Positions 14,409 to 34,465 of a DNA stretch of 45,947 bases are shown here, in pieces. How positions within the stretch are numbered: position 1 is the stretch's first letter; each line of letters begins with the position of its first letter. The translations under genes were made by a program, and so were the position numbers. Below the pieces are notes generated by a model that saw nothing but the letters and a program-made list of their open reading frames with translations, did no database searches and was not told the origin of the DNA. Source of the stretch: Paludibacter sp. (lineage in GTDB: Bacteria; Bacteroidota; Bacteroidia; Bacteroidales; Paludibacteraceae); NCBI GenBank assembly GCA_030653695.1, contig JAURYY010000247.1, positions 1 through 45,947 of the forward strand. Direction: 5' to 3'.

Positions 14409-15941
14409 TTATGATGATAAGATGTTAATTTTATTATTCAGAATCTGACTGAATGATATATTCATGATTTTTGATTCTATCCAAGCTGCAAAATCAAAAA
14501 TCAGCAATAGCTGATTTTCGTATTTATTCATAGCAATATCTTTGAGTTGAAGATTGTTTTTATTCCACAATGTTGTTCGTTCTTTGGATGATAAGTGGTT
14601 TATGGGCTTGCTAATAAATTTCAGAAATATTTTCTCAATTTTCAAACTGCGTTCTGTAGATTTCAGTTGCCTTTTTACCGATCGAATTTCAGATTCTATC
14701 AAATCAAAATCTCCTATTTCATACAGAAGAACTATATAAATCAGCCTTATTGCTTTGAAGGCAGGCATCAAATAAATTTCTCTTTCGACATTTAGTATTT
14801 GATTTAAAGTTTTACGCGCAAGTGAAAATTGTCGTAATCCAATATTCACTATTGAAATGTAAAGCAAAATTTGGAGTTGACGGGACATTAACAACATATT
14901 TATTTTGTCAATTAAATCAACAGTAAATTGGTCAATAACTTTTTTACCAGCCTCAAAGCAACCTGTATCGATAAAGGGGACAAGCGTATATAAAAATATC
15001 ACTGATTTTACTTGCAAATTAAAATTAGTGGAAGTGCTTTTGATTTTTTTAAGTTGATCAATAAAATGAGGCATAGCGTTGTAGTTTCGTATCACACGTA
15101 AACTTTCAAGCACCCCTTCGATAGTATTCAGATAATAAATGGGTGGATTGCTCAATAAATGTTTGTTTTTTTCAAATATAGCATTTAATTCATAAAACGA
15201 ATTGAGAGCCGACTTATAATCGCCAACTGCTATAAGGTAGTTCGATTGAAAAAGCTTATGGGTTTTTTGTATTTCAAAATTATTGAACCCTGTGCTCGAC
15301 ACAATACTCATTTCGCTAACAACCAAATCGTTTAATGTTTGTTTCTGATTGTTGGAAGCGACAACTCCACTGTGTAACAACCTATGTTTTAATATTCCGT
15401 ACAAAAACGCATGTTCGTTTATTTTTCGAATTTTTTTTAACGAGTCGTTTATTTTATATTGTAAAGTAAGTAGTTCATTTTCGCTTGTGTCTGGAAAGTC
15501 TAAACCCAACAGAAAATCATGTTCAATTTTTTGGGCAATGTGTAAAACCATAAAATTTTCAAAAACGATCGCTTCATTCTGAATTTTTAAAAGCAACTCG
15601 AAACACTCACCATACAATGATTTTTCGAAAAGCACCTTTGCATGCATCAGTTGATTAAAAAGCGAAAAATAACTATCCTGATTTTTTCTTAATTCACTCA
15701 AAACGTTTAACAATATATCGTACAGATAACTTACTCCTGTATTGAAATTTGAATTTGGTCTTTTTCTTTGAAAAGTATTTTTTATATCGTTTAATGTTAA
15801 CGATTTATCAGACTCAATTATTTTATAAAGGATCGCATAATCTGTGCTTTTCCCACTTTTGAATAATCGTTGAGTTGTACTTTTTTGTTCAGACTTGCTA
15901 AGCGAATGTACAAGTGTAATTAATGATGAGAGTTTCGACAT
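14409..15941 (-). CDS. Hypothetical helical-repeat (TPR-like) protein of Bacteroidetes
   Basis: 510-aa ORF. N-terminus LITLVHSLSKSEQKSTTQRLF...YAILYKIIESDKSL...SYLYDILLNVLSEL, then helical repeats. Confidence 0.7.
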   Translation of the reverse strand: MSKLSSLITLVHSLSKSEQKSTTQRLFKSGKSTDYAILYKIIESDKSLTLNDIKNTFQRKRPNSNFNTGVSYLYDILLNVLSELRKNQDSYFSLFNQLMHAKVLFEKSLYGECFELLLKIQNEAIVFENFMVLHIAQKIEHDFLLGLDFPDTSENELLTLQYKINDSLKKIRKINEHAFLYGILKHRLLHSGVVASNNQKQTLNDLVVSEMSIVSSTGFNNFEIQKTHKLFQSNYLIAVGDYKSALNSFYELNAIFEKNKHLLSNPPIYYLNTIEGVLESLRVIRNYNAMPHFIDQLKKIKSTSTNFNLQVKSVIFLYTLVPFIDTGCFEAGKKVIDQFTVDLIDKINMLLMSRQLQILLYISIVNIGLRQFSLARKTLNQILNVEREIYLMPAFKAIRLIYIVLLYEIGDFDLIESEIRSVKRQLKSTERSLKIEKIFLKFISKPINHLSSKERTTLWNKNNLQLKDIAMNKYENQLLLIFDFAAWIESKIMNISFSQILNNKINILSS

Positions 15942-15970
15942 TGATAGTTAAATTATAATAGTTACAAGTG

Positions 15971-15978
15971 CAAAAATA
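15971..15978 (-). promoter_or_regulatory. Putative -7 element (TATTTTTG) for the 510-aa hypothetical gene
   Basis: TAnnTTTG on the minus strand 30 bp upstream of the start. Confidence 0.4.
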
Positions 15979-16103
15979 GCAATATTATTTGTAATTATGA
16001 TTTCGAGCAAGATTATTATTTTAATATCTTATTAATATCTTGGCATTTAATAAATATAAATATTGTAATCCGTTGATTTGAAATTATGAAATTGCAATAA
16101 TTA

Positions 16104-16137
16104 TTGTTTTTTTAAATTTATTTTCTAATTACCTTTG
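16104..16137 (+). promoter_or_regulatory. Putative promoter of the rbsK-SusCD operon
   Basis: TTG (16104-16106), 23-nt spacer, TACCTTTG (16130-16137). Implies a leader of about 200 nt before rbsK. Confidence 0.4.
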
Positions 16138-16345
16138 TTATGTATTTGATGATTATTGCAACATTACCCGAATCGATTTATTATACACGACATACTTAAC
16201 ATACTCTTTGAATTTTGCAAAAAACTGATATACTGTGCTTTGTCGATGCTCTTGGCAATTAGATCTTTAATTATATTATGACTTTTTCAATTTTTTTTTA
16301 AATCTGGAAATATATCAAATCAACAAATTAATAAAACGGTAAACA

Positions 16346-17254
16346 ATGAACTCCACAAGAATTGTAGTAATCGGCAGTAGTAACACCGATATGGTTGTAA
16401 AATCGGATAGACTGCCTGTACCGGGCGAAACTATATTGGGTGGCGCATTTATGATGAACCCTGGCGGAAAGGGTGCCAATCAGGCAGTTGCAGCTGCTCG
16501 CCTTGGCGGCACCGTTACTTTTATTGCCAAAACAGGGAATGACCTGTTTGGCAAACAATCAATTGACATGTTCGATGAAGAAAATATCAATACTGATTTT
16601 ATTTTTTCCGACCCGCTCAATCCCTCCGGCGTTGCATTAATTATGGTGGATACAAATGGTGAAAACTGCATAGTAGTGGCTTCAGGTGCAAACGGAACGC
16701 TTGGTACACACGACATTGATAAATCCAGAACGGTGATTGAAAGTGCTTATATAGTTTTGATGCAGCTCGAAATTCCAATAGAAACTGTGGAATATGCCGC
16801 CAAAATAGCCAGTAACAAAGGTGCAAAAGTAATACTTAATCCTGCTCCGGCAGCTTTTCTCTCAAACGACCTACTAAAATGCCTTTATGCCATAGTACCC
16901 AACAAAACCGAAGCCGAAATGCTTTCAGGAATTAAAGTTCATGACTGGAAATCGGCCAGACAGGCTGCCGACATAATAAGCGAAAAGGGGGTTGATGTTG
17001 TCGTAATTACACTCGGCTCGAAGGGAGCTTTGATTAAAGAATACGACAAATATACCGAAGTGCCCGTCGAAAAAATTAAGGCTATAGACACCACAGCAGC
17101 CGGAGATACTTTCTGCGGCGCTCTTTGTGTCGGACTTTCGGAAGGAATGCCAATAGAAGATGCGGTAAAAATGGCGAATAAAGCTGCAGGAATCACAGTA
17201 ACCAGAGAAGGTGCGCAAGTGGCAATACCTTACCGTAAAGAAATAGAGCATTGA
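16346..17254 (+). CDS. rbsK: Ribokinase (PfkB family)
   Basis: GSSNTDMVVKSDRLPVPGETILGG, NPGGKGANQAVAAARLGG, TTAAGDTFCGALCVGL. Confidence 0.95.
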   Translation: MNSTRIVVIGSSNTDMVVKSDRLPVPGETILGGAFMMNPGGKGANQAVAAARLGGTVTFIAKTGNDLFGKQSIDMFDEENINTDFIFSDPLNPSGVALIMVDTNGENCIVVASGANGTLGTHDIDKSRTVIESAYIVLMQLEIPIETVEYAAKIASNKGAKVILNPAPAAFLSNDLLKCLYAIVPNKTEAEMLSGIKVHDWKSARQAADIISEKGVDVVVITLGSKGALIKEYDKYTEVPVEKIKAIDTTAAGDTFCGALCVGLSEGMPIEDAVKMANKAAGITVTREGAQVAIPYRKEIEH

Positions 17255-17298
17255 TATAAAACAGGTCAATCTTCACGTTATAAAAAAATAGTTTGTAT

Positions 17299-20244
17299 AT
17301 GAAAAATCACCTATCTTGGCAAAAATTAGTGCAGGTTTTCCTCACAATTTTATTCGTATTCGTTACTGTTGCCCAAAGTTTGGCAGCCAATATTACGGTC
17401 AAAGGAACAGTTGTAGATGAACAAGGAATTGCCTTGCCGGGCGTAAATATTAAAGCCATGGCTTACGAAATAGGCGTAATCACCGATTTCGATGGCAAAT
17501 ATACTGTACAACTTCCACTTGAAGCCACAGCGTTAATTTTCTCGTATATTGGTTACACCTCGCAGCAAATTACCATCAATAAACGAACAACAATCAATAT
17601 TGTAATGCTCCAAGATGTAAAAGCAATTGAAGAAGTAGTGGTCATTGGGTATGGAAAAACAACGAAAAAGGAACTCACCGGATCGATCTCATCACTTAAA
17701 GCTGAAAATTTCAGTCAAGGTTCCTTTGCAAATGCAGCTGGATTATTGCAAGGCAAAGTGGCGGGATTATCGGTAGTAAATGCCAACGGTGGCGACCCGC
17801 AGGCAAATTACGAAATAATACTTCGTGGTACTAACACACTAACTTCAGGGCAAGGTCCACTCATTATTATCGATGGTGTGGCAGGCGCAGATATGAAAAA
17901 CATTAACTTTCAGGAGGTGGAAAGTGTTGATGTGCTTAAAGATGGATCAGCAGCTGCTATTTATGGTACACGGGGTACAAATGGAGTTATTATTATTACT
18001 ACTAAACAAGCCCGTAAGGGGAAGACAAATATTGAATACCAAGGTATAGCCACTGTGCAAATAGCATCGCGCATGGTGCAAAATTTGAGTGCCGAAGCGT
18101 TTAAATACGCTATTGATACATATACACCTGCAAAAGCAGGGAGTATTTATAATAGTAGTACCAATTGGTTTAATGAAGTAACACGCTCTGCTCCAATAAG
18201 CCAAAAACACAATTTGGCAATTTCGGGTGGAAATGATGAATTCTCGCACCGCACTACTATTAATATGGAACAAAACCAGGGCTTACTTAAAAACAACAAT
18301 CTGAGTAAACTGTTGGCTAAAACAAATATTTTGCAAAAAGCACTGAACGGATTAATAACATTAAATTACAATTCGTACTATTCGATGCGGAAGTATAATC
18401 CGGCAAATTACGACATTTTTTTTCAGGCTTTTATTCATAATCCCACCGAACCAGTTTACGATAATACAAATGAACTTTCGGGTGGATACACTAAAGTAGA
18501 TGGCATTAGTTATTATAACCCCGTAGCAATGCTTAACGAAGAAACCCGCGAAGGCGAAACTGATAATTTTGGTGGAAATGTGCGAGCTACTCTTAATTTT
18601 CCTTATGTTGCAGGCTTGAAGTGGGACAATTTTGTATCGTACGAAAAATCCAGATGGGAATCGCATCGATATCGTACCCGATATTATCCAAGTGCCATAG
18701 GAAGTAATGGCATAGCAAGTATCGAAAACGGAAGTAATGCAACTTTGCAATACGAAAGCACCGTTAATTACACCAAAGAATGGGAAAAAAATACAATTCA
18801 AGCATTGGCCGGTTATACCTACCAAACTGAGAATATGCATACCGCAAGTATGGAAAACAGGGGTTTCGATTTTGACTATTTTGGAACAAACGACATTGAT
18901 GATGGTGCAGCCTTAAAACTCGGAACAGCTAATATGGATTCTTATCGAGAATCAAGTAAACTAATCTCATTTTTTGGACGTGCGATATACAATTTTGGCG
19001 AGAAATATCTTTTTTCGGCATCGATACGTCGCGAAGGTTCCTCTCGGTTTGGTGTAAATTATAAGTGGGGCTGGTTTCCGGCGGTAAGCGTAGGTTGGCG
19101 AATTCATGAGGAAGATTTTATGAACGATATAAAATGGTTAAATGAATTGAAACTGCGCATTGGGTACGGTTCTACAGGAAATCAGGAGTTCTCGAATTAC
19201 AAATCGCTTATAATGATGGGGAAAGCCGGAATGTTTTATTATAATGGGAAATGGATTAATACCTACCAACCCGTGAGCAATCCAAATCCAAATCTTCGTT
19301 GGGAAAAGAAACATGAGGTGAATTTAGGTGTTGATTTTTCGGGTTTTCAAAATAAAATTGGTGGAAGCATTGACATATACAATCGCCGAAGTAAAGATCT
19401 ATTATATAATTACGATGTATCATCTCCACCCTATTTGTTTACTAATATAATGACTAATGTAGGAATTATTCGAAACACAGGAATAGAGATATCGCTCAAT
19501 GGAAACCCAATAAAAGCAAAAGACCTTAAATGGAATACTTTTGTAAATTTCAGCACGAACAAAAATATTCTCGAGAAATTCACAAACGATGAATTCACTA
19601 ACGGCACTTACAAAACTGGATGGTTAACCGGCGATATTGCTGTTTTCAGTCAGCGAATGGTCGAAGGTAAAAGTTTAGGCACCTTTTATGGGCCGGTTTG
19701 GTTGCGTGTTGACGAAAATGGGAATGACATTTTTAAAAACCAATTGCCCGATGGCAAAGTTGCAGAAGACAAATGGGAGCCTATTGGCAATGCATATCCC
19801 GCTTTTATACTTGGTTGGAGCAACGCAATAAACTATAAATCGTGGGACTTAGGTGTTTCATTAAGGGCTTCGATTGGGGGCAAAGTTTTAAACTCGTACA
19901 GATTATATTATGAAAACTTCGGAGCAATAGGTCTGAAAAATATTCTGAAATCACAATTAGATAATGCTGCTTTTAAAGGGAATGCTCTATACTCGTCAAA
20001 ATACATCGAAGATGCATCATACCTTAAGATGGACAACCTTTCGGTAGGGTATAATTGGAGTAAACCGTCTAAGTTAGTATCGAGTATCCGAATTTACAGT
20101 GCTGCACAAGACCTGTTTTGCATTACAGCCTACAAAGGAGTAAATCCCGAAGTGTCGTTGAGCGGATTGGAACCCGGTATTGAGAAAATGAGGTACTATC
20201 CTGTTACAACAGGTGTAACAATAGGTGTAAATATAATATTCTGA
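17299..20244 (+). CDS. SusC/RagA family TonB-linked outer membrane protein
   Basis: CarboxypepD_reg-like N-terminus (VKGTVVDEQGIALPGVNIKA), plug domain (VVVIGYGKTTKKELTGSISS; VDVLKDGSAAAIYGTRGTNGVIIITTK). Confidence 0.97.
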   Translation: MKNHLSWQKLVQVFLTILFVFVTVAQSLAANITVKGTVVDEQGIALPGVNIKAMAYEIGVITDFDGKYTVQLPLEATALIFSYIGYTSQQITINKRTTINIVMLQDVKAIEEVVVIGYGKTTKKELTGSISSLKAENFSQGSFANAAGLLQGKVAGLSVVNANGGDPQANYEIILRGTNTLTSGQGPLIIIDGVAGADMKNINFQEVESVDVLKDGSAAAIYGTRGTNGVIIITTKQARKGKTNIEYQGIATVQIASRMVQNLSAEAFKYAIDTYTPAKAGSIYNSSTNWFNEVTRSAPISQKHNLAISGGNDEFSHRTTINMEQNQGLLKNNNLSKLLAKTNILQKALNGLITLNYNSYYSMRKYNPANYDIFFQAFIHNPTEPVYDNTNELSGGYTKVDGISYYNPVAMLNEETREGETDNFGGNVRATLNFPYVAGLKWDNFVSYEKSRWESHRYRTRYYPSAIGSNGIASIENGSNATLQYESTVNYTKEWEKNTIQALAGYTYQTENMHTASMENRGFDFDYFGTNDIDDGAALKLGTANMDSYRESSKLISFFGRAIYNFGEKYLFSASIRREGSSRFGVNYKWGWFPAVSVGWRIHEEDFMNDIKWLNELKLRIGYGSTGNQEFSNYKSLIMMGKAGMFYYNGKWINTYQPVSNPNPNLRWEKKHEVNLGVDFSGFQNKIGGSIDIYNRRSKDLLYNYDVSSPPYLFTNIMTNVGIIRNTGIEISLNGNPIKAKDLKWNTFVNFSTNKNILEKFTNDEFTNGTYKTGWLTGDIAVFSQRMVEGKSLGTFYGPVWLRVDENGNDIFKNQLPDGKVAEDKWEPIGNAYPAFILGWSNAINYKSWDLGVSLRASIGGKVLNSYRLYYENFGAIGLKNILKSQLDNAAFKGNALYSSKYIEDASYLKMDNLSVGYNWSKPSKLVSSIRIYSAAQDLFCITAYKGVNPEVSLSGLEPGIEKMRYYPVTTGVTIGVNIIF

Positions 20245-20266
20245 TAGTATTAACAAAATAAGTAGT

Positions 20267-21787
20267 ATGAAAAAATATATTTTTGGTTTAAGCATTCTTT
20301 CTGTATTTTTAAGCACCGCTTGTACCGATTTATCCGAAACGGTTTACTCCGACTTGCCAAGTGATAAATACTTTGTGAGCGAAAAAGCTCTATTAATGAA
20401 TGCTGGCAGGGCTTATACTAAATTACAGCCCTATCCAGAAGAACAGATGTTGTGGTCGCTGGTAACGGTTAGTACCGATGAATGTGTGGTACCTGCCCGT
20501 GCCGATGGCGAGTGGTGGGACAATGGACGATGGGACGAAATGCGACAACATGCCGTTTTGCCTACAAACAAAATAAACCGCAAGGCTTGGGAGTTTGTTT
20601 TCGGAGGCATTACTGCTTGCAACGAGGTATTGTATGTAACCGAACTTTCACCATACTCTTTCGATGGGAAGGATAAAATTCTTGCCGAAATAAAAGTGCT
20701 GCGTGCATTGTACTATTATTGGGGAATGGACGCATGGGGCGAAATACCATTTACCACCAACTTTGCCGATAAAACATTACCCAAAAAAAAATCGCGCCAA
20801 TTTATTTTTAATTTCGTGGAACAAGAAATCAAAGAGAATATCAAGTTTTTGAGCGAAACACCTACTCCGCTAAACTACGGACGGGTAACCAAAGGAATGG
20901 CATTTACATTACTTGCTAAATTATATCTGAACGCTCAGGTATGGACGGGTGCGCCCCGCTGGGCTGATGCTGAACGAATGTGCGATAGCGTGATAACAAA
21001 AGGAAATTACAGATTAGAGAATAATTATTTCGATAATTTTAAAGTGCAAAATGAGAACTCCAAAGAAAATATTTTCGTTATAGTTTATAATTCAACCCTT
21101 ACTACAGAGTGCTTTTATTGGTACGATTTAACATTAAATGCCATGAGTCGCTATACCTATAATATTAACGACACGCCTTGGGATGGGTTTATGACAACGC
21201 CTGACTTTTTCAAAACTTATACTGATACCGATTTGCGAAAAAAAACATGGCTATATGGGCAACAATACCACTTGAACGGAAAAAAACTTTTCGAAAAATC
21301 TGGAACTGGAGACACCCTATGGTTTGCCTACAAAGCCGATTTTCCGGAATCAACCTACAAATCGCGTCACAAATGGGATGGTGCCCGATGTGCTAAGTAC
21401 GAATTTCAAACCAACGGTTTGCAATATGACATTATAGATATGGAAAACGATTTTGTACTATTCAGGTATGCCGATGTAGTGATGATGAAAGTGGAAGCCA
21501 TGATGCGTCAAAGCAAAACTGCTCAAGCCCTGAGTTTGCCCGATTTCAAACTTTTAAGAACCCGCGTTGGGGTGTCAGCTTTTGCCACACTTACAATGGA
21601 CGAACTACTTGCTGAGCGAGGACGGGAATTTGCATGGGAAGGTCATCGCCGTCAGGACTTAATTAGATTTAACAAATGGAATGATAAATGGTGGGCGAAA
21701 CCACCAACAACAACACAATGGGTGTTCCCAATTCCGCAAACAGCAATCAACACCAATCCGAATTTATCACAGCCGGCTGAAAATTAA
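20267..21787 (+). CDS. SusD/RagB family nutrient-binding outer membrane lipoprotein
   Basis: Lipobox STAC. Immediately follows susC. LLAERGREFAWEGHRRQDLIRFNKW and VFPIPQTAINTNPNLSQ. Confidence 0.96.
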   Translation: MKKYIFGLSILSVFLSTACTDLSETVYSDLPSDKYFVSEKALLMNAGRAYTKLQPYPEEQMLWSLVTVSTDECVVPARADGEWWDNGRWDEMRQHAVLPTNKINRKAWEFVFGGITACNEVLYVTELSPYSFDGKDKILAEIKVLRALYYYWGMDAWGEIPFTTNFADKTLPKKKSRQFIFNFVEQEIKENIKFLSETPTPLNYGRVTKGMAFTLLAKLYLNAQVWTGAPRWADAERMCDSVITKGNYRLENNYFDNFKVQNENSKENIFVIVYNSTLTTECFYWYDLTLNAMSRYTYNINDTPWDGFMTTPDFFKTYTDTDLRKKTWLYGQQYHLNGKKLFEKSGTGDTLWFAYKADFPESTYKSRHKWDGARCAKYEFQTNGLQYDIIDMENDFVLFRYADVVMMKVEAMMRQSKTAQALSLPDFKLLRTRVGVSAFATLTMDELLAERGREFAWEGHRRQDLIRFNKWNDKWWAKPPTTTQWVFPIPQTAINTNPNLSQPAEN

Positions 21788-21845
21788 TATTTAACAACTC
21801 GGAAAAAGAAATGTATCGAGAGGTATTTATATTTAAACTGACATT

Positions 21846-23456
21846 ATGCTTAAAAAAACTATTATCCATATACTCATGATCTTGTTGACTGCGAGTGCTT
21901 GTACCGAAAATAAAAGTGCAATTTCCGATCGGACTTTTAGCATATCGAAAGATGAGTTGCAGGATAAAATAAAAGGCGGCTGGGCAGGTCAGACTATAGG
22001 TGTGGTTTATGGTGCACCTGTTGAGTTTAAATATCAAGGAGCAATTATTCCAGGGTATCATTATATCCCTTGGCGAGATGGATACGTGAAATATTGGTGG
22101 GATAAAAAACCGGGATTGTTCGATGATATTTATACCGATTTGAATTTTGTGCAAGTATTTGAAAAACATGGATTAAATGTGTCGATGGATACTATTGCGC
22201 TTGCTTGGGCATCTACTTCTTATCATTTAGCACATGCCAATCAAGCCTCGCGATATAATATTTTAAACGGAATAATGCCTCCTGAATCGGGCTTTTGGAA
22301 AAACAATCCACATGCCGACGATCTCGATTTTCAGATTGAAGCCGATTTTATAGGACTTATGGCTCCTGCAATGGTAAATTCGGCTACTGAAATAGCTAGT
22401 CGTGTAGGACATATTATGAGCAGTGGCGATGGCTGGTACGGTGGTGTTTATGTTTCGGCGTTGTATTCGCTTGCTTTTGCAATAAGCGATGTAATACTAT
22501 TAGTCCAGGAGTCATTAAAAACCATTCCGGAGGGTACTCTGTTTTACAGTTGCATAGCCGATGTCCTGAAATTTCACAAACAATATCCCGATGATTGGAA
22601 AGCTACGTGGTTCGAGATTCAAAAAAAGTGGGATAAAGATGTTGGTTGCCCTAAAGGGACGTATTTATCATTCAACATAGATGCTAAAATAAATTCGGCT
22701 TATGCTACAATTGGGTTACTTTACGGCAAAGGCGATTTTGGGAAATCCATCGAAATAGCGACGCGTTGCGGACAAGATGCCGATTGTAATGCAGCTACTG
22801 TGGGTGGTGTGCTTGGTGTAATGCTTGGGTACTCAAATATCCCCGACTTTTGGTTAAAACCTTTGCGTGAAATTGAGCTACTCAATTTCGAAGGCACTAC
22901 AATTTCATTATCAGAGGCATATCAGCTAAGCTACAAACATGCTCTAAAAATAATCCAAAAGGGAGGTGGTAAAATAGAAACCGACAAGGTAATAATACTC
23001 TATCAAAAACCTAAAGCAGTAGCTTTTGAGCAAAATTTCGAAAACACATTTCCGATTTATCGCGACCGATTTGATAAGTCCTTTACCAAAGAACTTGTTT
23101 ATGAGTTTACCGGAAATGGATTTATTTTTTACGGAAACTTAGTTAAAAATTCTAAAGTAGACAAAATTTATATCGACCGCATTTCACGTCGATTAGGGTC
23201 AGAAGTATTCGGGCTTGCCGAATTGGACGATAGTTATGTGGCTGAATTAGCATTATATATAGATGGGAAATTTGATGAAAAAATTAAGATGCCGATGAAA
23301 AATACGGCGCGTAGGCTCGAACCGGCATGGAAATATCAACTCAATGAAGGCAAACATACTGTGCGACTTGAATGGTTGAATCCACATAAAGAGTATGAAA
23401 TTAGAATAAACGATATAATTATTTATTCAGAAAAAGCGTATAACACTGATATTTAA
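21846..23456 (+). CDS. ADP-ribosylglycohydrolase family lipoprotein (copy 1)
   Basis: Lipobox LTASAC. DraG/ARH-type motifs KGGWAGQTIGVVYGAP, FDDIYTDL, GQDADCNAATVGGVLGVMLG. Confidence 0.88.
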   Translation: MLKKTIIHILMILLTASACTENKSAISDRTFSISKDELQDKIKGGWAGQTIGVVYGAPVEFKYQGAIIPGYHYIPWRDGYVKYWWDKKPGLFDDIYTDLNFVQVFEKHGLNVSMDTIALAWASTSYHLAHANQASRYNILNGIMPPESGFWKNNPHADDLDFQIEADFIGLMAPAMVNSATEIASRVGHIMSSGDGWYGGVYVSALYSLAFAISDVILLVQESLKTIPEGTLFYSCIADVLKFHKQYPDDWKATWFEIQKKWDKDVGCPKGTYLSFNIDAKINSAYATIGLLYGKGDFGKSIEIATRCGQDADCNAATVGGVLGVMLGYSNIPDFWLKPLREIELLNFEGTTISLSEAYQLSYKHALKIIQKGGGKIETDKVIILYQKPKAVAFEQNFENTFPIYRDRFDKSFTKELVYEFTGNGFIFYGNLVKNSKVDKIYIDRISRRLGSEVFGLAELDDSYVAELALYIDGKFDEKIKMPMKNTARRLEPAWKYQLNEGKHTVRLEWLNPHKEYEIRINDIIIYSEKAYNTDI

Positions 23457-23472
23457 AACTACAGAATTGAAA

Positions 23473-25026
23473 ATGAAAAAAATAACGTTAATATTTTTAG
23501 TGGCGATTATTGCCTTATCGTGTGCCGAAAAAAAAAAGAAAATTGCTTATAACCAACCATATACTATCGCAATTGATGTGTTAAAAGATAAAATTAAAGG
23601 TGGATGGGCTGGGCAAACCATTGGCTGTACTTTTGGCGGACCAACTGAATTTAAGTATCGGGGTGCAATTATTCACGATCAGCAACCTATTATTTGGTAC
23701 GATGATTATGCACGCGAAACCTTTGAAATTGATCCCGGATTGTACGATGATGTATATATGGATTTAACTTTTGTGGAAATAATAAATAAATACGGTCTCG
23801 ATGTGCATGTTGATTCATTTGCTTTGGCGTTCGCCAACGCTGATTACAAACTGTGGCATGCCAATCAAGCAGCTCGCTATAATATTTTAAACGGAATAAT
23901 GCCGCCTGCTTCGGGACATTGGATGAATAACCCACATGCCGATGATATTGATTTTCAGATTGAAGCTGATTTTATTGGTATGATGACCCCCGGAATGGTG
24001 AATACAAGTTCTGAGATTGCCGACAAAATTGGACACATCATGAATTATGGCGATGGCTGGTATGGTGGTGTATATATTTCGGCTATGTATAGTTTGGCTT
24101 TTGTGTCGGACGATATACGGCTTGTTGTAAGCGAAGCATTGAAAACCATTCCGCCCAAAAGTAAATTTGCCCTATGTATAGCCGATGTTATTGCCTTGCA
24201 CAAAAAATATCCTACCGATTGGAAACGATGCTGGCGCGAAATTGAACAAAATCATGCATTTGAAATTGGATGTCCCGAAGGCGTATTCAATGCTTTTAAT
24301 ATTGATGCTACACTCAACTCGGCTTATGTTGTTATGGGATTGTTATACGGTAATGGCGATTTTTATACCACTATGGACATTGCCACCCGTGCCGGACAGG
24401 ATTCCGATTGCAACCCAGCTTCAGCTGCCGGAGTGTTAGGCGTAATGTATGGCTACAGCAAAATACCCCAATATTGGAAACCGGCTTTGGAAAAAGTAGA
24501 AGACCTCGATTTTCCCTATACAAGCATATCGCTAAACGAAATTTACGATATTAATCTGAAAAATATTAAAGATGTAGTGCTTAAAAACGGGGGACAAGTT
24601 GATAACAAATCGATTAGCTTTATCATTCAGCTACCAAAAGAAGTTCGCTGGGAAATGTCATTCGAAGGGTACTATCCTTCGGAGCGTAGGGTAATCAACA
24701 AAGAGTTTAAGGGGGATCATTCGATAAAAGTAGATTTTGAAGGTACGGGTGTTGTTCTCATGGGTTTTATAAAGCAAATAATCCCAAATAAAACGAACTA
24801 TATAGCTCACATTGAAGCTTATATTGACGGTAAAAAAGTAGAGTCGTTTAAAATGCCATTCGATTATATTAAGCGCAAATACGACATTTTTCACAGTTAT
24901 AATTTAATAAAAGGCAAACATAGTTTGGAAATTAAATGGCTTAACCCGCACCCACATTATGTTATTCAGGCCAAAGATTTGGTAGTATATACCGATAAGG
25001 CAGTTGAAAATAAACGTCCGTATTGA
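23473..25026 (+). CDS. ADP-ribosylglycohydrolase family lipoprotein (copy 2)
   Basis: Lipobox IALSC. KGGWAGQTIGCTFGGP, YDDVYMDL, GQDSDCNPASAAGVLGVMYG. Paralogous to the upstream gene. Confidence 0.88.
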   Translation: MKKITLIFLVAIIALSCAEKKKKIAYNQPYTIAIDVLKDKIKGGWAGQTIGCTFGGPTEFKYRGAIIHDQQPIIWYDDYARETFEIDPGLYDDVYMDLTFVEIINKYGLDVHVDSFALAFANADYKLWHANQAARYNILNGIMPPASGHWMNNPHADDIDFQIEADFIGMMTPGMVNTSSEIADKIGHIMNYGDGWYGGVYISAMYSLAFVSDDIRLVVSEALKTIPPKSKFALCIADVIALHKKYPTDWKRCWREIEQNHAFEIGCPEGVFNAFNIDATLNSAYVVMGLLYGNGDFYTTMDIATRAGQDSDCNPASAAGVLGVMYGYSKIPQYWKPALEKVEDLDFPYTSISLNEIYDINLKNIKDVVLKNGGQVDNKSISFIIQLPKEVRWEMSFEGYYPSERRVINKEFKGDHSIKVDFEGTGVVLMGFIKQIIPNKTNYIAHIEAYIDGKKVESFKMPFDYIKRKYDIFHSYNLIKGKHSLEIKWLNPHPHYVIQAKDLVVYTDKAVENKRPY

Positions 25027-25028
25027 AA

Positions 25029-26615
25029 ATGATAAGGGGTAATTATTTACATATTCGCTTTTATTTTTTCTTGTTGTTAATAACTGCAAGCTATGTTTTT
25101 GTTGCCTGTACACCTACCGAACCGAAAATAGAAGAGGCGAAAATTCAACGTTACGCCGAAAGCATGCATTTTAATAGCAAAATTTTAAATCGAAATGTAC
25201 GTTATTCTATTTATTTGCCCGAAAAATATAGCAAAATCAATTCCTATTCAACCGTATATTTGCTACATGGCTATGGGGGTAATGAATGTAACTGGATGAA
25301 AGATGGAAAAATTGATTTATTAATCGCTCCATTAGAAAAAGCAAATAAAGTTGACCCTATGATATATATTATGCCGCAGGGCGATAATAATTATAATGTA
25401 AACCGGTTTGACGGTACGTTGAATTATATGCGTATGTTCACTCAAGAGCTTGTTCCGCTTATCGACTCACTATATGCTACCAAAAAAGATCGCGCCAAAA
25501 GAGCGATTGTAGGATTTTCGATGGGTGGATATGGCGCATTGATACTTGCAGCAAAAAATCCGCAACTTTTTACTGTGTCGGTGCCACTAAGTATGTCATT
25601 TCGCACCGATGAGCAATACATGAACGAACCACAATCGGTGTTCGATTACCAGTGGGCATCAATTTTTGGAGCTAAAGGAACTACAGGAGATGCCAGATTG
25701 ACCGATTTTTTTAAACTACACAGTCCTTTTCATTTTTTTGCTTCAAATGAAAAAAAATTAACTCCAACGGTGAACTATTTTATCGACTGTGGCGATGATG
25801 AAGAAACACTTTCGGAAACAAACAATGCATTGCATAAGCTCATGCTGCAAAAAGATATAGCACATGAATATAGAATGCGAAATGGGGGACATAATTGGGA
25901 TTATTGGCAAAGTGGAATGCGTGAAGCATTACTGTATATTCAATCCTGCTTCGATGCGAATAGCTATCCCCAAGAAACCGGCAACAGCAATTCCGAAAAA
26001 TTTTCGGGGAATTTGGTACAACTAACTATTTCGGAAACAATATTAAATGTATGGTTACCTGCAGGTTATTCAACTTCTTCTTCGATGTATCCGGTAGTTT
26101 ATTTCTACCATTCGATAGAGGCAAACCGACTTGCCGAAACAAATAAAATGTGTGCTGCTTTAGATTCGTTACAAAAAGTAAAACCGTTTATTTTGGTCGA
26201 AATGAATGCAGCCGAAGTTGAAACAAGATTAATTAATATGCAACAGATAAGCGCTTTAATAGACAATTCGTACCGAACAAAAACCGCCAATACGAATCGG
26301 ATTGGTATAGGTAACAAACTTGGTGCAAAGCTACTGCTCGTTGCCGCAAATAATTATTCGGATTTAATGTACGCATCGTTTATTTTCGATGCACCACTCG
26401 GTACTGAAATTCCTAAACTTACCGCTAAATTTATGTATTTAAGTTGCAGCGATACAAGTTTGGATTTTGATTTGATGAACAAGCTATATTTAAAATGCCG
26501 AAAGGAAAAAATTACGCATCAATTCAGGGTATATAATGGTTTGCCTACTTATAACTCCTTGTTGCAAGGAATGAATGAGGCAATTGTTTCGATAGGATTA
26601 TTTTTATCAATGTAA
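25029..26615 (+). CDS. Esterase (FrmB/feruloyl-esterase-like alpha/beta hydrolase), lipoprotein, with degenerate C-terminal repeat
   Basis: YLLHGYGGNECNW, nucleophile elbow VGFSMGGYGAL, acid FIDCGDDEETL, His RNGGHNWDYW. Lipobox VFVAC. Confidence 0.88.
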   Translation: MIRGNYLHIRFYFFLLLITASYVFVACTPTEPKIEEAKIQRYAESMHFNSKILNRNVRYSIYLPEKYSKINSYSTVYLLHGYGGNECNWMKDGKIDLLIAPLEKANKVDPMIYIMPQGDNNYNVNRFDGTLNYMRMFTQELVPLIDSLYATKKDRAKRAIVGFSMGGYGALILAAKNPQLFTVSVPLSMSFRTDEQYMNEPQSVFDYQWASIFGAKGTTGDARLTDFFKLHSPFHFFASNEKKLTPTVNYFIDCGDDEETLSETNNALHKLMLQKDIAHEYRMRNGGHNWDYWQSGMREALLYIQSCFDANSYPQETGNSNSEKFSGNLVQLTISETILNVWLPAGYSTSSSMYPVVYFYHSIEANRLAETNKMCAALDSLQKVKPFILVEMNAAEVETRLINMQQISALIDNSYRTKTANTNRIGIGNKLGAKLLLVAANNYSDLMYASFIFDAPLGTEIPKLTAKFMYLSCSDTSLDFDLMNKLYLKCRKEKITHQFRVYNGLPTYNSLLQGMNEAIVSIGLFLSM

Positions 26616-28189
26616 TGACAAAGAAACTCATCATACTACTTATTATATATATTCAGGCTGCTACAATAAATGTAACTGCAGGTAACTTTTTGGTGCACGA
26701 TAATGTGCAGTTTTACAGTAAAATATTGCAACAGCCCATTAAGTTTGCTGTTATTTTGCCAAAACAGTATTTTGAAAGCAATAACCAATATCCTACCATT
26801 TACTTCTTGCACGGACTTGGCGACAGTCATAATGCATGGCTCGAAAACGGACAACTCGCGCAGCACGCTTATCGATTGACGAAAAACAAAACCATTCAGC
26901 CTTTTATAAGCATTATTCCACAAGGGTTTACTACTTATTATTCTAATTTTAGCGATGGTAGTTTTTCGTATCAGGATATGTTTGTAAAGGAACTGGTACC
27001 TTTTGTCGATTCGGTATTTAGAACTAGAAAAGATCCATCGCAACGTGCCGTAATGGGATATTCGATGGGAGGCTTTGGGGCATTGGTTTTGCCAGTAAGG
27101 CATCCGGATGTTTTTGGCATCAGTATTCCACTTAGTGCCTCGATCCGGACTGATGCACAATACATGAGTGAAGAGCAAAGAGGATGGAACGAGCAATGGG
27201 GAAGAATTTTTGGAGGTATAGACAAACAAGGGAATCACAGATTAACAGATTATTATAAAAATAATTCGCCATTTTATTTATTTAAAAATATAAAATTGGA
27301 GGAATTAAAGCGTATAAAGTTTTATATAGTAAATGGCGATAAAGAAAATACGCTCTGCCGCAGCAACGAGGAGTTACATATATTGTTGCTTCAACAGCAA
27401 GTTCCACACTTTTACAATGTGAAAGCCGGTGGGCATGAGTTTTCGTTTTGGCGCGATTGTCTGCCCGAAGCGCTGAATTTTGCCAATGTTGGTTTCAATA
27501 AACAAGTTTATCGACCGAATTTTAGTGCAATTAAAGTGAGTGATAAACTTTCAACACAAGTAGCTTCTACAAATCTTACTGTTTCTGACAAACAAATACG
27601 AGTGATCTATCCCGAACTTCAAAACACCGTAAACCGAAGTTATCCGATAATTTACTTTGTTGCTAATATGAGCGTATATGAACAAAACCAGTTAATCAAT
27701 TTATATGTCAAGGAGCAAGAAAAGAACAGCTTACCGCCTATTATTTTCTGTTTTGTACCTACTAATTATCAACACGCTATACGTTCTGAAATAATTCCAT
27801 ATATGGAACAAAACGGAAAAGCTCGCAAAGGTGGTAGGTTTCGTGCTTTTTGGGCATTCGGAAATGAAAACAATGTTTTGTTGAACGAAATTCTTGAACC
27901 TGATATCTTTACTGTTGTAGCACTAACCTCCACTACGCTCGGCTTACCCGAAAATGAAATAAAAACAATACTATTGAGTAGAAAAAATGCACGAAAGCAA
28001 TTATGGTTTTACATTGATACACGCCCCGAAAGTACAGGGTATTGGTCGAACGCATTTTTGCATATTCAACTACGCGAAGCCGATTTTACGCACGAATATA
28101 GAGTTAGAAGTGAACAAAACGACTTTAACCTCCTAAAATCCGGTTTTATTGAAACCTTGAATTATATTAACAAAAAAATTCACCATTAA
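26615..28189 (+). CDS. Esterase (FrmB/feruloyl-esterase-like alpha/beta hydrolase) with degenerate C-terminal repeat
   Basis: FLHGLGDSHNAW, MGYSMGGFGAL, VNGDKENTL, AGGHEFSFWRD. Start overlaps the upstream stop (taATG). Confidence 0.88.
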   Translation: MTKKLIILLIIYIQAATINVTAGNFLVHDNVQFYSKILQQPIKFAVILPKQYFESNNQYPTIYFLHGLGDSHNAWLENGQLAQHAYRLTKNKTIQPFISIIPQGFTTYYSNFSDGSFSYQDMFVKELVPFVDSVFRTRKDPSQRAVMGYSMGGFGALVLPVRHPDVFGISIPLSASIRTDAQYMSEEQRGWNEQWGRIFGGIDKQGNHRLTDYYKNNSPFYLFKNIKLEELKRIKFYIVNGDKENTLCRSNEELHILLLQQQVPHFYNVKAGGHEFSFWRDCLPEALNFANVGFNKQVYRPNFSAIKVSDKLSTQVASTNLTVSDKQIRVIYPELQNTVNRSYPIIYFVANMSVYEQNQLINLYVKEQEKNSLPPIIFCFVPTNYQHAIRSEIIPYMEQNGKARKGGRFRAFWAFGNENNVLLNEILEPDIFTVVALTSTTLGLPENEIKTILLSRKNARKQLWFYIDTRPESTGYWSNAFLHIQLREADFTHEYRVRSEQNDFNLLKSGFIETLNYINKKIHH

Positions 28190-28220
28190 TTTATTTTACA
28201 CTTTAAAACAATAAAATACT

Positions 28221-29228
28221 ATGTACATTGTCGAAAATTATTCGTTAGCTGTTCTCCTCTCTGTAGTTACTATGCTCTGCTGGGGGTCATGGGGAAACAC
28301 TCAAAAGTTAGCTGCCAAAACTTGGCGGTTTGAACTTTTTTATTGGGATTATGTTATTGGGATGCTCTTGTTTGGCATAGTAGCGGGTTTTACTCTTGGG
28401 AGCGTTGGACAAGGAGGTCGCTCTTTTTTGACCGATTTGCAACAATCCGATTTGAATAACATTGGTAGCGCATTACTGGGTGGAATAGTTTTTAATGCTG
28501 CCAATATCCTGCTTTCGGCATCTATTTCGTTAGCCGGATTAGCGGTTGCTTTTCCGCTTGGTATTGGTATTGCTTTGGTGTTGGGAGTTTTTGTCAATTA
28601 TTTTACTGCACCGAAAGGAGACCCTGTTTTCCTTTTTATTGGTGTGGCACTTATTATGATGGCTATCATTTTTAACGCTATTGCAGCCAGTAAAAACAAA
28701 AAAGCAGGCAAAAGTAAATCCAATAAAAAAGGGATTTGGCTGGCTTTACCTGCAGGGTTGTTAATGGCTTTTTTCTATCGTTTTGTTGCAGCAGCAATGG
28801 ATTTGGATAATTTTGAAGCACCTGCTGCCGGTATGATGACCCCTTACTCAGCATTTTTTATTTTCACACTTGGTGTATTATTAAGCAACTTTATATTTAA
28901 TACAATTATCATGAAAAAGCCTTTCGAAGGCACTCCTGTTTCGTACAAAATGTATTTTAAAGGAGGTTTAAACACGCATTTAATAGGCATATTGGGAGGT
29001 TCTATATGGGCATTGGGCAGTTTGCTGAGCTATTTGGCTGCGGGTACTGCCGGCACTGCTATTTCTTATGCATTAGGACAGGGTGCTACCATGATTGCTG
29101 CCATCTGGGGCGTGTTTATCTGGAAAGAGTTTAAAGGGGCTTCAAAGCAAACAAATATACTACTCACACTTATGTTTATCCTCTTTATTGCGGGCTTGGC
29201 ACTTATCATTTTGTCAGGTGGTAATTAA
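28221..29228 (+). CDS. GRP/DMT-superfamily sugar (ribose-type) permease
   Basis: MLCWGSWGNTQKLAAKTWRFELFYWDYVIG, multiple TM segments, GTAISYALGQGATMIAAIWGVFIWKEFKG. Confidence 0.85.
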   Translation: MYIVENYSLAVLLSVVTMLCWGSWGNTQKLAAKTWRFELFYWDYVIGMLLFGIVAGFTLGSVGQGGRSFLTDLQQSDLNNIGSALLGGIVFNAANILLSASISLAGLAVAFPLGIGIALVLGVFVNYFTAPKGDPVFLFIGVALIMMAIIFNAIAASKNKKAGKSKSNKKGIWLALPAGLLMAFFYRFVAAAMDLDNFEAPAAGMMTPYSAFFIFTLGVLLSNFIFNTIIMKKPFEGTPVSYKMYFKGGLNTHLIGILGGSIWALGSLLSYLAAGTAGTAISYALGQGATMIAAIWGVFIWKEFKGASKQTNILLTLMFILFIAGLALIILSGGN

Positions 29229-29290
29229 TTTTTCATTCGTAAATAACACACTAACTCTCTATAAATAAACAATTAAAAATTTTAAAAATC

Positions 29291-30079
29291 ATGAAAAAAA
29301 TTCAATTACTGACATTATTTGTCGCAGTTGGCTTAATTGCCTTTACATCGTGTGATCCGAAAGATAAGGAAGAACCCATCGTTGTAGTTAAAGCCTCGCC
29401 AATCAAATCGATTTCGATGGTTTCGGGCAGCGATACCGAAATGTGGGATTTTGCATACCACACCACAACAAAAAAAATCACAGAAATTAAAAATTATTGG
29501 AATGCCGCTTTAGACAAAACAATTACGTACAATTATGCCACAGCAGGCAAACTTACCATTACTTCGGGTACTACAGCTGTAACCTACGATATCAATGCAT
29601 CGGGTATGGTAACAAAAGAGCCTTGGTCAACTTCCGGCGAATTTGCAGTTTACGAGTATGATGCTGCTGGATATTTAATTAAAATAAGTGAATTCTGGGG
29701 TGGCTCTCTACGTTTGAAAATGGCTGCCGTAATTACTAATGGTAATATTATGAAACACACCACTTACGATGACGATGGAGTAACTGTAAAAAGAATAAAA
29801 GAGTTTACTTACCTTGTAGGCGATAATGTGAATGAAATTCAACAAGCCAGTATGGTGGATCACAACACCAAACCAATGACCAACTTATTTGGTAATTCAA
29901 GCAAGAAATTACTTGACAGACTAAAACTTTGGGATCCGCGAGTTAATCCTATCGTTGAAAGAACAACTGTGATTACGTACTTATTCGACATCAAAAATCG
30001 TCCATCGAAAATTACGCGTACCGGTGCCACTTTTGTTGAAGTATATAATTATACCTATGTTGAAGATGCGGTGAAATAA
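29291..30079 (+). CDS. Hypothetical lipoprotein with YD-repeat-like beta strands
   Basis: Lipobox FTSC. Repeated Y-D/T strands (ITYNYATAGKLTITS, YEYDAAGYLIKISE, YLFDIKNRPSKITRTG). Confidence 0.7.
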   Translation: MKKIQLLTLFVAVGLIAFTSCDPKDKEEPIVVVKASPIKSISMVSGSDTEMWDFAYHTTTKKITEIKNYWNAALDKTITYNYATAGKLTITSGTTAVTYDINASGMVTKEPWSTSGEFAVYEYDAAGYLIKISEFWGGSLRLKMAAVITNGNIMKHTTYDDDGVTVKRIKEFTYLVGDNVNEIQQASMVDHNTKPMTNLFGNSSKKLLDRLKLWDPRVNPIVERTTVITYLFDIKNRPSKITRTGATFVEVYNYTYVEDAVK

Positions 30080-30111
30080 AAAAATCTTCCTCTAATTAAA
30101 TTTTAATGATT

Positions 30112-30150
30112 AAGAAAGCTGACTGGTTTGTAATCGGTTGGCTTTCTTTT
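30112..30150 (+). terminator. Rho-independent terminator at end of rbsK-SusCD operon
   Basis: aagaaagctgactgg-tttgtaat-cggttggctttctttt: stem with wobble pairs followed by a T-tract. Confidence 0.75.
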
Positions 30151-30166: not shown

Positions 30167-31651
30167 ATGCTTTCCACTAAACTCATAGGCTTACTATCCG
30201 GAATAATATTTTTTGTACTTATACTTTTACTTCCAACGCCAAACAGCATGTCGATAGAAGCAAAAAGTGTTGCAGCAGTAGTAGTGCTAATGAGTATTTG
30301 GTGGCTTACAGCTGCCATTCCTATTTATGCGACTGCTTTTTTGCCCTTGGTTTTGTTCCCGCTTTTAAAAATATTGCCAGCTCAGGATACCGCTGCCAAC
30401 TATGCCCACAACTTTGTTTTTATGATGCTTGGTGGATTTATTTTAGCTAAAGCCATCGAAACTCAAAACCTACACAAGCGTATTGCACTTGTGTTGATGA
30501 ATATATTCGGGACAGGTCGAAAAAGAATTATTCTTAGTATAATGCTTGCCACGGCATTTCTCTCCATGTGGATATCAAACATTACTACTGCATTACTAAT
30601 GCTCCCCATAGCATTGGCAATAGTTGTAAAAGAAGAAACCGGAACAAATGGTGCAACTACTTTTTCAAAAGCACTCATTTTGGGTGTAGCGTATTCGGCA
30701 ACCATCGGTGGTCTTGGTACGCTAATAGGTTCACCCACCAACCTGATTCTTGTAGGGGTTATGGAAAAGATTTTCCCCCAAGCTCCCCCAATTACTTTTT
30801 TTCAATGGTTGAAAATTGGATTGCCAATATTAATCATTCTTCTGCCAATAATCTGGTTTTACCTTATAAAATATTTTAAAGTTACGGGCTTTCTTTCCGA
30901 TAGTCATGAAGTTATTAAACAAGATTTAAATAATTTGGGAAAAATGTCGGTAGGCGAAAAAGGAGTTATGTATGTGTTTTTGATTGCCGTATTCGGATGG
31001 GTGTTTCGTGATGGATTTGAATTTGGGAACTTTATGATCAAAGGATGGGGCGAACTTACAGGTTTGCAAGGATACGTTCACGACAGTACTGTGGCATTAT
31101 TGGCTGTTTTGCTTTTATTTATACTGCCTGCTGGCAACAATAAAAAATTAATGGAATGGAAGGATGCCAGTCAAATTCCGTGGGGAGTATTAGTGATAGT
31201 AGGTGGAGGCTATGCATTAGCCGAAAGTTTTAAAGTTACCGGTTTGGCCGATTGGTTAGGGCAATTGCTGTTGTTTGTTAATAACTTTTCGCCACTTGTT
31301 GTTCTGATAATCGTAGTGGTATTTATCTCGTTTTTCACAGAGCTGAACCCCAATACAGCTACGGTGAATATATTTTTACCTGTGTTGGCAAGTTTGGCTA
31401 TAGTAAGTAACACAAACCCGCTACTGTTAATGATTCCGGCTACCGTAGCGTCATCCTTCGCTTTTATGATGCCTGCCGGAACCGGGCCAAATACAATAGC
31501 TTTTGCAAGCGAACGATTGACAATTTCCGAAATGGCTAAAAGCGGATTAGGAATTAAATTTATTTCTTTGGTAATTCTTATCCTCTTGCTTTATTTTATA
31601 ATTATGCCTTCGCTCAACCTGCAAACAACATTACCTGATTGGGCAAAATAA
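30167..31651 (+). CDS. DASS/SLC13 family anion (di/tricarboxylate) transporter
   Basis: SIWWLTAAIPIYATAFLPLVLFPLL, SATIGGLGTLIGSPTNLILVG, FAFMMPAGTGPNTIAF. Confidence 0.9.
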   Translation: MLSTKLIGLLSGIIFFVLILLLPTPNSMSIEAKSVAAVVVLMSIWWLTAAIPIYATAFLPLVLFPLLKILPAQDTAANYAHNFVFMMLGGFILAKAIETQNLHKRIALVLMNIFGTGRKRIILSIMLATAFLSMWISNITTALLMLPIALAIVVKEETGTNGATTFSKALILGVAYSATIGGLGTLIGSPTNLILVGVMEKIFPQAPPITFFQWLKIGLPILIILLPIIWFYLIKYFKVTGFLSDSHEVIKQDLNNLGKMSVGEKGVMYVFLIAVFGWVFRDGFEFGNFMIKGWGELTGLQGYVHDSTVALLAVLLLFILPAGNNKKLMEWKDASQIPWGVLVIVGGGYALAESFKVTGLADWLGQLLLFVNNFSPLVVLIIVVVFISFFTELNPNTATVNIFLPVLASLAIVSNTNPLLLMIPATVASSFAFMMPAGTGPNTIAFASERLTISEMAKSGLGIKFISLVILILLLYFIIMPSLNLQTTLPDWAK

Positions 31652-31673
31652 TTCTGATAAATATAGAAACTGT

Positions 31674-32876: not shown

Positions 32877-32899
32877 ATTTGGGCTAAAATATTAAAAAC

Positions 32900-34465
32900 A
32901 TGAAAAACAACAATAATTTTGTTTTTAACGCCATTGGAAGGAAAATACCCACCAATGTAAACGGAAAAACGGTTATCCCTTTTATGGGTATTGGCAAGTA
33001 TTTACCCGAAGGAAATAAACATACTTCTCCAATTTCGACTTGTGCTAATTTTCCGTCCGATGGAAATAAGTTACTACCCACGCTTAAGGATTCACTTATT
33101 AAAGCAGGTTTAAAAAGCGGTATGACCATAAGCACCCATCATCATTTCCGAAATGGGGACATAATTGCTAATCAAATTTTCGATATGGCTTCGGAACTTG
33201 GCGTGAAAGACCTCATTTGGTTTCCATCGGCATCATTCGAATGTCATGCTTATTTGATTAAGTATTTGGAAAATGGAACGATTCATCACATCGAAGGGAG
33301 TATGAATGGTTCACTTGGGCGTTTTGCGTCAGATGGTTTGATGAAAGGCTGCGGCGTGCTGCGTTCGCATGGCGGACGTTACCAGAGTGTGCAAGATGGC
33401 GAAGTTCATATTGATATTGCTGTAATAGCTGCTCCCACTGCCGATAGTTTTGGTAATGCAAACGGCATTGACGGACCAGCTGCTTGCGGGTCGTTGGGCT
33501 TTGCGCTTGCCGATTCGGAGTTTGCCGATAAAGTAATAATAGTTACCGACAATTTAGTGGTTTTTCCTTGTATTCCGTGGCAAATACAGGGTAACAATGT
33601 AGATTATGTGGTGCAGGTAGAAAAAGTTGGCTTGCCCGAAAAAATTGTGTCCGGTACAACCGAAATAACAAAAAGCCCCGATCGTTTGTTTCTGGCTGAA
33701 CTCACTGCCAAATTTTGTGAAGCAGCCGAAATTATAAAAAATGGTTTTTCGTTTCAGAGCGGTGCCGGAGGTATTTCGCTTGCTGTTGGAAATTATTTCA
33801 AAGAAATAATGGTTAAAAATGGTATCAAGGCTCGATTTGCGCGCGGAGGAAGCAATAAATACTTGGTTTCGATGCTCGAAGCAGGGCTCGTTGATTATAT
33901 ATTAGATGGACAAACTTTTGATTTGGAGGGCGTACGGTCGATGCGTGAAAATCCTAACCATGTGTGGACAAGTCCGTTTACAAGCTATAATTACCATAGT
34001 AAAGGAAATTTTGCAAGTCAGGTGGACGTGGTTATTCTGGGCGCAACCGAAATTGATGTGAATTTTAATGCCAATGTAGTTACTCATTCTGATGGTTATT
34101 TACTTCATGGAATTGGCGGCTGGCAAAATTGTTTGTTCTCAAAAACAGTAATTTTAACTGTTCCGCTTTTCAGAGATAGAATCCCTGTAATTAAAGATGA
34201 AGTTACAACAATTTGCGGACCCGGCGAATTGATAGATGTTGTAATAACCGAACGGGGAATAGCGATAAATCCTTTACGGGTAGATTTGATAGAAAAAACA
34301 AAAGATTCGGGGCTGCCAATCGTTTCGATGACAGAACTGAAAGAAATGGCTGAAAAAATTTGTGGTATTCCATCGAAGCCCAAATTTGGAAATAAACCTA
34401 TAGCCATTGTAAAATGGGTTGATGGTACGGTAATTGATACCGTTTGGGGGGTAGATGAAAGTTAA
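32900..34465 (+). CDS. citF: Citrate lyase alpha subunit
   Basis: TISTHHHFRNGD, FQSGAGGISLAVG, RFARGGSNKYLVSMLEAGLVDYILDGQTFD, ITERGIAINPLR. Confidence 0.92.
   Translation: MKNNNNFVFNAIGRKIPTNVNGKTVIPFMGIGKYLPEGNKHTSPISTCANFPSDGNKLLPTLKDSLIKAGLKSGMTISTHHHFRNGDIIANQIFDMASELGVKDLIWFPSASFECHAYLIKYLENGTIHHIEGSMNGSLGRFASDGLMKGCGVLRSHGGRYQSVQDGEVHIDIAVIAAPTADSFGNANGIDGPAACGSLGFALADSEFADKVIIVTDNLVVFPCIPWQIQGNNVDYVVQVEKVGLPEKIVSGTTEITKSPDRLFLAELTAKFCEAAEIIKNGFSFQSGAGGISLAVGNYFKEIMVKNGIKARFARGGSNKYLVSMLEAGLVDYILDGQTFDLEGVRSMRENPNHVWTSPFTSYNYHSKGNFASQVDVVILGATEIDVNFNANVVTHSDGYLLHGIGGWQNCLFSKTVILTVPLFRDRIPVIKDEVTTICGPGELIDVVITERGIAINPLRVDLIEKTKDSGLPIVSMTELKEMAEKICGIPSKPKFGNKPIAIVKWVDGTVIDTVWGVDES

Follow-up and report, generated by a model that had tools for sequence, protein, structure and literature searches.

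The stretch of DNA analyzed here (the window: 45,947 nucleotides of contig JAURYY010000247.1 from Paludibacter sp.) carries an operon that, judged by its gene content and regulator, can be firmly assigned to the ribose-utilization systems (RUS), with two exported proteins of the ARH fold, ARH1 and ARH2, and two esterases, EstA and EstB, where a nucleoside hydrolase (NH) would usually be found. The host genome amounts to 3.69 Mb in 383 contigs and is 97.9% complete. Nine plus-strand genes span 16346-30079, either overlapping or no more than 72 bp apart, and their order, strand and families are those listed in an initial annotation of this DNA. The same order is found in dozens of genomes, which puts the nine-gene arrangement far beyond chance. 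The limits proposed in that annotation hold for the nine-gene core but not for the whole unit, which also needs a divergent regulator gene (14409-15941), and the 3' boundary sits just short of three genes (30167-34465) encoding a DASS symporter, CitD-CitE and CitF, which recur beside the operon in relatives. The features of the operon are as follows.

14409..15941, minus strand: RusR-like regulator, transcribed divergently from the operon; NF058569 (BT2802 family ribose utilization protein) 575.9 bits, cut-off 550
15942..16345: divergent intergenic region of 404 bp, presumed promoter/operator from its position between divergent genes
16346..17254, plus strand: ribokinase (RusK-like), cytoplasmic; TIGR02152 369.9 bits, cut-off 299.65; also above the NF008353 cut-off
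17299..20244, plus strand: SusC/RagA TonB-dependent outer-membrane transporter; TIGR04056 706.3 bits
20267..21787, plus strand: SusD/RagB surface lipoprotein; PF07980, PF14322
21846..23456, plus strand: ARH1, exported ARH-fold lipoprotein, predicted periplasmic ribosidase; PF03747 120 bits, cut-off 26.2
23473..25026, plus strand: ARH2, exported ARH-fold lipoprotein with C-terminal β-sandwich; PF03747 128 bits, same cut-off
25023..26615, plus strand: EstA, CE1/feruloyl-esterase-like lipoprotein; PF00756, GxSxG in the N-terminal half
26615..28189, plus strand: EstB, second CE1-like esterase, probably soluble and exported; PF00756 110.6 bits
28221..29228, plus strand: RusT-like inner-membrane sugar permease (DMT/RhaT/ureide-permease type); PF07168 87.6 bits, PF06800
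29291..30079, plus strand: surface lipoprotein of DUF4595 (porin-like) fold, possible substrate-binding protein; profile and fold matches
30112..30148, plus strand: intrinsic terminator; 17-bp stem, 3-nt loop, U-rich tail

The terminator, already placed at the end of the set by the initial annotation, folds at -19.6 kcal/mol (z = -5.7); a simple terminator pattern scan missed this hairpin, and folding detected it.

Regulator and gene set

The RUS of Bacteroides thetaiotaomicron comprises genes for ribokinase, SusC, SusD, a DUF4969 protein, NH and a DMT permease (PMC10434189), of which RusR controls BT2803-2809, and RusT has been proposed to import free ribose (PMC12596196). The product of 14409-15941 in the window scores over the cut-off of the curated NCBIfam model for the BT2802 family, to which the B. 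thetaiotaomicron RUS regulator belongs, and contains no Pfam domain. This regulator family is rare, being present in 12 of 295 genomes of the order, and in 11 of these 12, the window included, its gene lies divergent beside a ribokinase gene. Together with the regulator, the window has the ribokinase, the SusC/SusD pair and the DMT permease; only the NH (PF01156) is missing, and this component is variable among other loci with a BT2802-family regulator. Because the regulator falls in the BT2802 family and the skeleton is that of the published B. thetaiotaomicron system, the locus is a RUS, and this assignment, which we consider solid, supports the earlier proposal of SusCD-type scavenging of ribosides. 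In a few related loci (e.g. L010:3-1232), a LacI-family regulator encoded upstream replaces the BT2802-type regulator.

Interchange of ARH and nucleoside hydrolase

Sister loci with a BT2802-family regulator combine ribokinase (RK), ARH, NH and permease (Perm) in several ways: RK-NH-Perm-SusCD (L149), RK-ARH-NH-Perm (L148), RK-NH-ARH-Perm (L151) and RK-RK-Perm-NH (L146), as well as RK-ARH2-Perm without NH. Next to ribokinase and permease, ARH and NH thus occur either in place of one another or together. Since both co-occur in some of these loci, they probably differ in the ribosides that they cleave. The initial annotation had pointed out the absence of an NH from the locus; searches with PF01156 extend this absence to the whole window genome as assembled, and 17 of 19 relatives with the long form of the operon (described below) also gave no match. 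Given the interchange in sister loci and the lack of NH in the window genome and most of these relatives, the ARHs most likely work in the periplasm as ribosidases, with free ribose as the product. The earlier suggestion that ARHs act in place of NH is thus strengthened by the regulator family, by the interchange and by a genome with no PF01156 gene.

ARH-fold proteins

The AlphaFold model of ARH2 (pLDDT 91.6) consists of a helical ARH domain (residues ~34-371) and a β-sandwich, and its best solved fold match in Foldseek is ARH3 (6hh4; E 3.8e-7, TM 0.71 normalized by target), with DraG also matched. The acidic metal-site positions, including the Glu (E59, D92, D93, D310 and D312), show no variation across all 47 ARH1/ARH2 sequences compared. 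In addition, ARH1 and ARH2 have in common a set of invariant aromatic and polar residues, among others W75, Y125, H129, W150 and H155, and the ARH proteins bear C-terminal β-sandwich or F5/8-like domains. In the characterized ARHs, substrate positioning depends on both metals and on the 2'' and 3'' hydroxyls of the distal ribose (PMC7050489), and ARH1 and ARH3 hydrolyze only α-linked ADP-ribose (PMC6309922). Judged by residue conservation, the portion of the ARH active site kept here is the part that reads ribose, and by analogy with the characterized enzymes the window ARHs may share their preference for the α-anomer. Another uptake-linked context for an ARH is the PIOMA14_I_1196 locus of Prevotella intermedia, where an ARH family gene was up-regulated with hmuY in a study of the iron-dependent stimulon (PMC10434189).

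Esterases, permease, lipoprotein and predicted topology

The esterase motifs read GFSMGG and GYSMGG. EstA is closest among solved structures to a ferulic acid esterase (7xrt, 1.1e-40), and its C-terminal half is without GxSxG. The permease matches the RhaT subfamily model below cut-off and is a neighbor of ribokinase or ARH in sister loci. The last lipoprotein (29291-30079) has no Pfam match; it was placed by a profile match to the DUF4595 homologs of other loci and by a fold match to 4ghb (E 6e-10). At L006:15805-17073, between permease and CitE, the usual lipoprotein is replaced by a protein with a Fib_succ_major domain and a weak match to a Por secretion tail.

In relatives of the operon, acidic residues follow the lipidated Cys in SusD and the last lipoprotein and are mostly absent from ARH1, ARH2 and EstA, while the lipobox itself is mostly missing from EstB and from ARH0, a third ARH-fold protein of the relatives. 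Because acidic residues at this position are a surface-export signal for lipoproteins (PMC5080379), the binding proteins are predicted to face outward and the enzymes inward, in which case the substrate would enter the periplasm intact and be cleaved there.

Conservation and history of the operon

A scan of genome contigs returned at least 589 relatives of ARH2, of which the best 80 by ARH2 similarity were kept; the frequencies of the long form given here therefore describe this similarity-ranked sample rather than the phylum. The long form, defined by ARH0, ARH1 and ARH2 together, accounts for 47 of these loci, each with one or more esterases of the PF00756 type, which suggests that the esterases may well be the accessory deacylases envisaged in the initial annotation. 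Its hosts are named Bacteroidales, Cyclobacteriaceae, Flammeovirgaceae, Flavobacteriaceae and Chitinophagaceae, and the closest named loci among those fetched are from Paludibacter. Gelidibacter salicanalis PAMC21136 and Ferruginibacter sp. HRS2-29 are cultured strains with the long form. There are two layouts: RK-SusC-SusD-ARH0-ARH1-ARH2-Est-Est-Perm-lipoprotein, which is the window's type, and RK-Perm-SusC-SusD-ARH0-ARH1-ARH2-Est, mostly from gut or rumen. The joint conservation of the gene set, which the initial annotation had left to be checked, is borne out by the recurrence of the operon in ~47 loci across Bacteroidota. In an even sample of the phylum (396 genomes), ARH1 had 8 matches at E <= 1e-60 besides the window (49-55% identity); the sole match whose locus was read is of a short form, and the co-occurrence of CitF with ARH1 in this sample is therefore uninformative on the long form.

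The window departs from its relatives in that ARH0 (~590-680 aa), elsewhere encoded between SusD and ARH1, is missing: the gap between the two genes is 58 bp (21788-21845), and the genome has only two PF03747 genes. Moreover, the operon is a mosaic. Ribokinase, SusC, SusD, ARH2, the esterases and the permease are nearest to Paludibacter-type loci (L003-L006), whereas ARH1 and the last lipoprotein are nearest to lake-type loci. ARH1 is 76% identical to that of L026 versus 65% to that of L005, a pattern that holds along the whole gene, and in trees it groups with L012/L022 (98/93), whereas ARH2 groups with L003/L006 (100/99). Exchange of a segment together with loss of ARH0 would explain these observations, and an assembly error may also lie behind the mosaic or the absence of ARH0.

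Linkage to citrate genes

Downstream of the terminator are three associated neighbors.

30167..31651, plus strand: DASS/SLC13-type di/tricarboxylate symporter; TIGR00785 274 bits
31674..32876, plus strand: CitD-CitE fusion (citrate lyase gamma/beta-like); PF03328, PF06857; TIGR01588 265 bits, below the cut-off of 443
32900..34465, plus strand: CitF (citrate lyase alpha); TIGR01584 511.8 bits, cut-off 501.45

A citrate or dicarboxylate transporter and/or CitE/CitF adjoins the operon in 23 of the 28 window-subtype loci with enough flank (hand count). The trio of DASS, CitE and CitF lies upstream rather than downstream in six of them (L013, L018, L025, L027, L031 and L037), and in three (L006, L012 and L023) the transporter is of the unrelated CitMHS family (TIGR00784 543 bits for L012). 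CitF at >=60% identity occurs in 25 of 32 window-subtype genomes versus 0 of 17 genomes of other subtypes (Fisher 5e-8) and in 37 of 396 genomes of the phylum sample, comparisons that ignore shared descent and transfer; in gut/rumen-type genomes CitF was tested genome-wide and the upstream flanks were not read. The nearest solved relatives of the symporter are NaDC3/NaCT. Among the lyase subunits of the window, CitF is over its cut-off and CitE and CitD are under theirs, and neither CitC (TIGR00124) nor CitG (PF01874) had a match in the 97.9% complete window genome. The linkage of the operon to citrate genes is a new observation, and an ester-linked acid is one guess at what lies behind it. 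That citrate-uptake genes adjoin the operon so often gives a tangible hint at the ribose-bearing nutrient that it serves.

Proposed mechanism and alternatives

We consider it probable that the locus is a RUS whose NH function is taken over by ARH-fold enzymes. SusC and SusD, probably with the DUF4595-fold lipoprotein, would carry a riboside across the outer membrane; EstA and EstB would strip its ester-linked groups in the periplasm before ARH1 and ARH2 hydrolyze the ribosyl bond there, yielding free D-ribose; the RusT-like permease would move the ribose into the cytoplasm, where ribokinase would convert it to ribose 5-phosphate; and the RusR-family protein would control the divergent operon. 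Several points weigh against this model. The best profile match in the PDB (1.1e-5) is limited to the C-terminal Asp motif, and the proteins are so distant from characterized ARHs that function cannot be deduced by sequence. Characterized ARHs have Thr in the TDDT motif and Thr or Ser after the DxD motif; ARH1 and ARH2 have Y/F91 and C313 (46 of 47) there, and ARH0 has S83 and N303, so the activity or reaction may differ. In addition, the export-signal rule behind the predicted topology comes from work on other species of the phylum, and the model leaves the adjacent citrate genes unexplained.

The alternative with the best prospects, which we nevertheless think unlikely to apply, has as its substrate a glycan that bears ribofuranose or an oligosaccharide that is O-acylated, with the ARHs as exo-ribofuranosidases and the esterases as glycan deacetylases or feruloyl esterases; this would be a special case of the proposed mechanism with a polymer as substrate. 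It fits the import of oligomers by SusCD pairs, the CE1-type esterases, which are typical glycan deacylases, the β-sandwich or F5/8-like domains of the ARHs, which are frequent in carbohydrate enzymes, and the invariant aromatic and polar residues common to ARH1 and ARH2. However, the loci of relatives showed no glycoside hydrolase as a constant partner of the operon, which would leave the remaining sugars of such a glycan unexploited, and we know of no glycan hydrolase of the ARH fold. The initial annotation had ADP-ribosyl substrates among its candidates; in this specific version the operon would scavenge ADP-ribosylated proteins, NAD-derived material or ADP-ribose, with the ARHs removing ADP-ribose. 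This agrees with PF03747 membership, the fold match to ARH3 and DraG, and the retention of the four metal Asp and the Glu, but it is improbable: the product, ADP-ribose, is not expected to be used by a sugar permease and a ribokinase, and no Nudix, pyrophosphatase, phosphatase or nucleosidase that could process it is present in the locus or in the conserved core of relatives. Since the Thr positions are lost as well, and similarity to characterized ARHs scarcely extends beyond the C-terminal Asp motif, ADP-ribosyl substrates are unsupported.

The citrate genes invite another explanation, that ribose is ester-linked to citrate or a related acid, which the esterases would free, DASS or CitMHS import and citrate lyase cleave, while the ARHs free the ribose. 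The frequency of these genes on either side of the operon, the swapping of unrelated transporters and the distribution of CitF all speak for it, but the gut/rumen subtype of the long form, in which the permease gene follows that of ribokinase, has the esterases but no citrate genes, in the window a terminator separates the citrate genes from the operon, CitC and CitG were not found, which makes the lyase doubtful, and no natural ester conjugate of citrate and ribose is known to us; we give it only a slim chance. It is least plausible of all that the kinase and the permease handle a ribose analog or a pentose other than ribose and that the likeness to RUS is one of gene order only. PfkB kinases and RhaT-type permeases do vary in specificity, and this permease is under the RhaT cut-offs, but the ribokinase passes the cut-offs of equivalog models and the regulator belongs to a RUS-specific family. 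A separate candidate, the scavenging of cobamides (α-ribazole), was rejected, as there is no cobalamin riboswitch, and the operon contains no B12 genes.

Significance and comparison with known systems

ARH enzymes are known for the reversal of ADP-ribosylation. A conserved, exported ARH branch in ribose-catabolic operons, interchangeable with NH, offers a direct test of the fold as a general ribosidase, and the same operons allow a test of which ribose-bearing nutrient this branch serves. More speculatively, and against the odds as we see them, the exported ARHs could be nutritional ribosidases inactive on ADP-ribose, a glycosidase-like branch devoted to esterified, possibly citrate-bearing, α-ribosides. 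If true, esterified α-ribosides would be a class so far unrecognized as a bacterial nutrient.

A literature search found nothing on ARH in polysaccharide utilization loci or RUS, nor on ribofuranosidases of the ARH fold. The survey of RUS variants in the RUS paper of Glowacki et al. 2020 reportedly includes ADP-ribosylglycohydrolases, and for this reason we make no claim of first discovery. The RUS class is known; the window departs from it in having ARH-fold enzymes and two esterases in the usual place of the NH. Compared with the B. thetaiotaomicron RUS (BT2802-BT2809), the window has the same regulator family, ribokinase, SusC, SusD, DMT-type permease and operon layout, but two ARH-fold enzymes and two CE1-type esterases rather than a DUF4969 protein and an NH, and it adds the DUF4595-fold lipoprotein and the neighboring citrate genes. 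The short ARH-type RUS of Parabacteroides, Massilibacteroides and others (RK-ARH2-(NH)-Perm; L050, L063, L068, L148) resemble it in ribokinase, one ARH2-like protein, permease family and, wherever the flank was read, regulator; unlike the window, they are without esterases, ARH0/ARH1 and citrate genes, often have an NH beside the ARH, and form their own ARH2 group in the tree. The esterases share the PF00756 domain and GxSxG with CE1 feruloyl and acetyl xylan esterases, but have a second, C-terminal half without the motif and are set in a ribose operon without xylanases. Finally, the window ARHs share the all-helical fold and the Asp/Glu positions of the binuclear metal site with the characterized family (ARH1, ARH3, DraG and Tri1), yet they are exported, carry an extra β-sandwich domain, have the Thr positions replaced, and are tied to sugar catabolism rather than to ADP-ribosylation signaling or toxin immunity.

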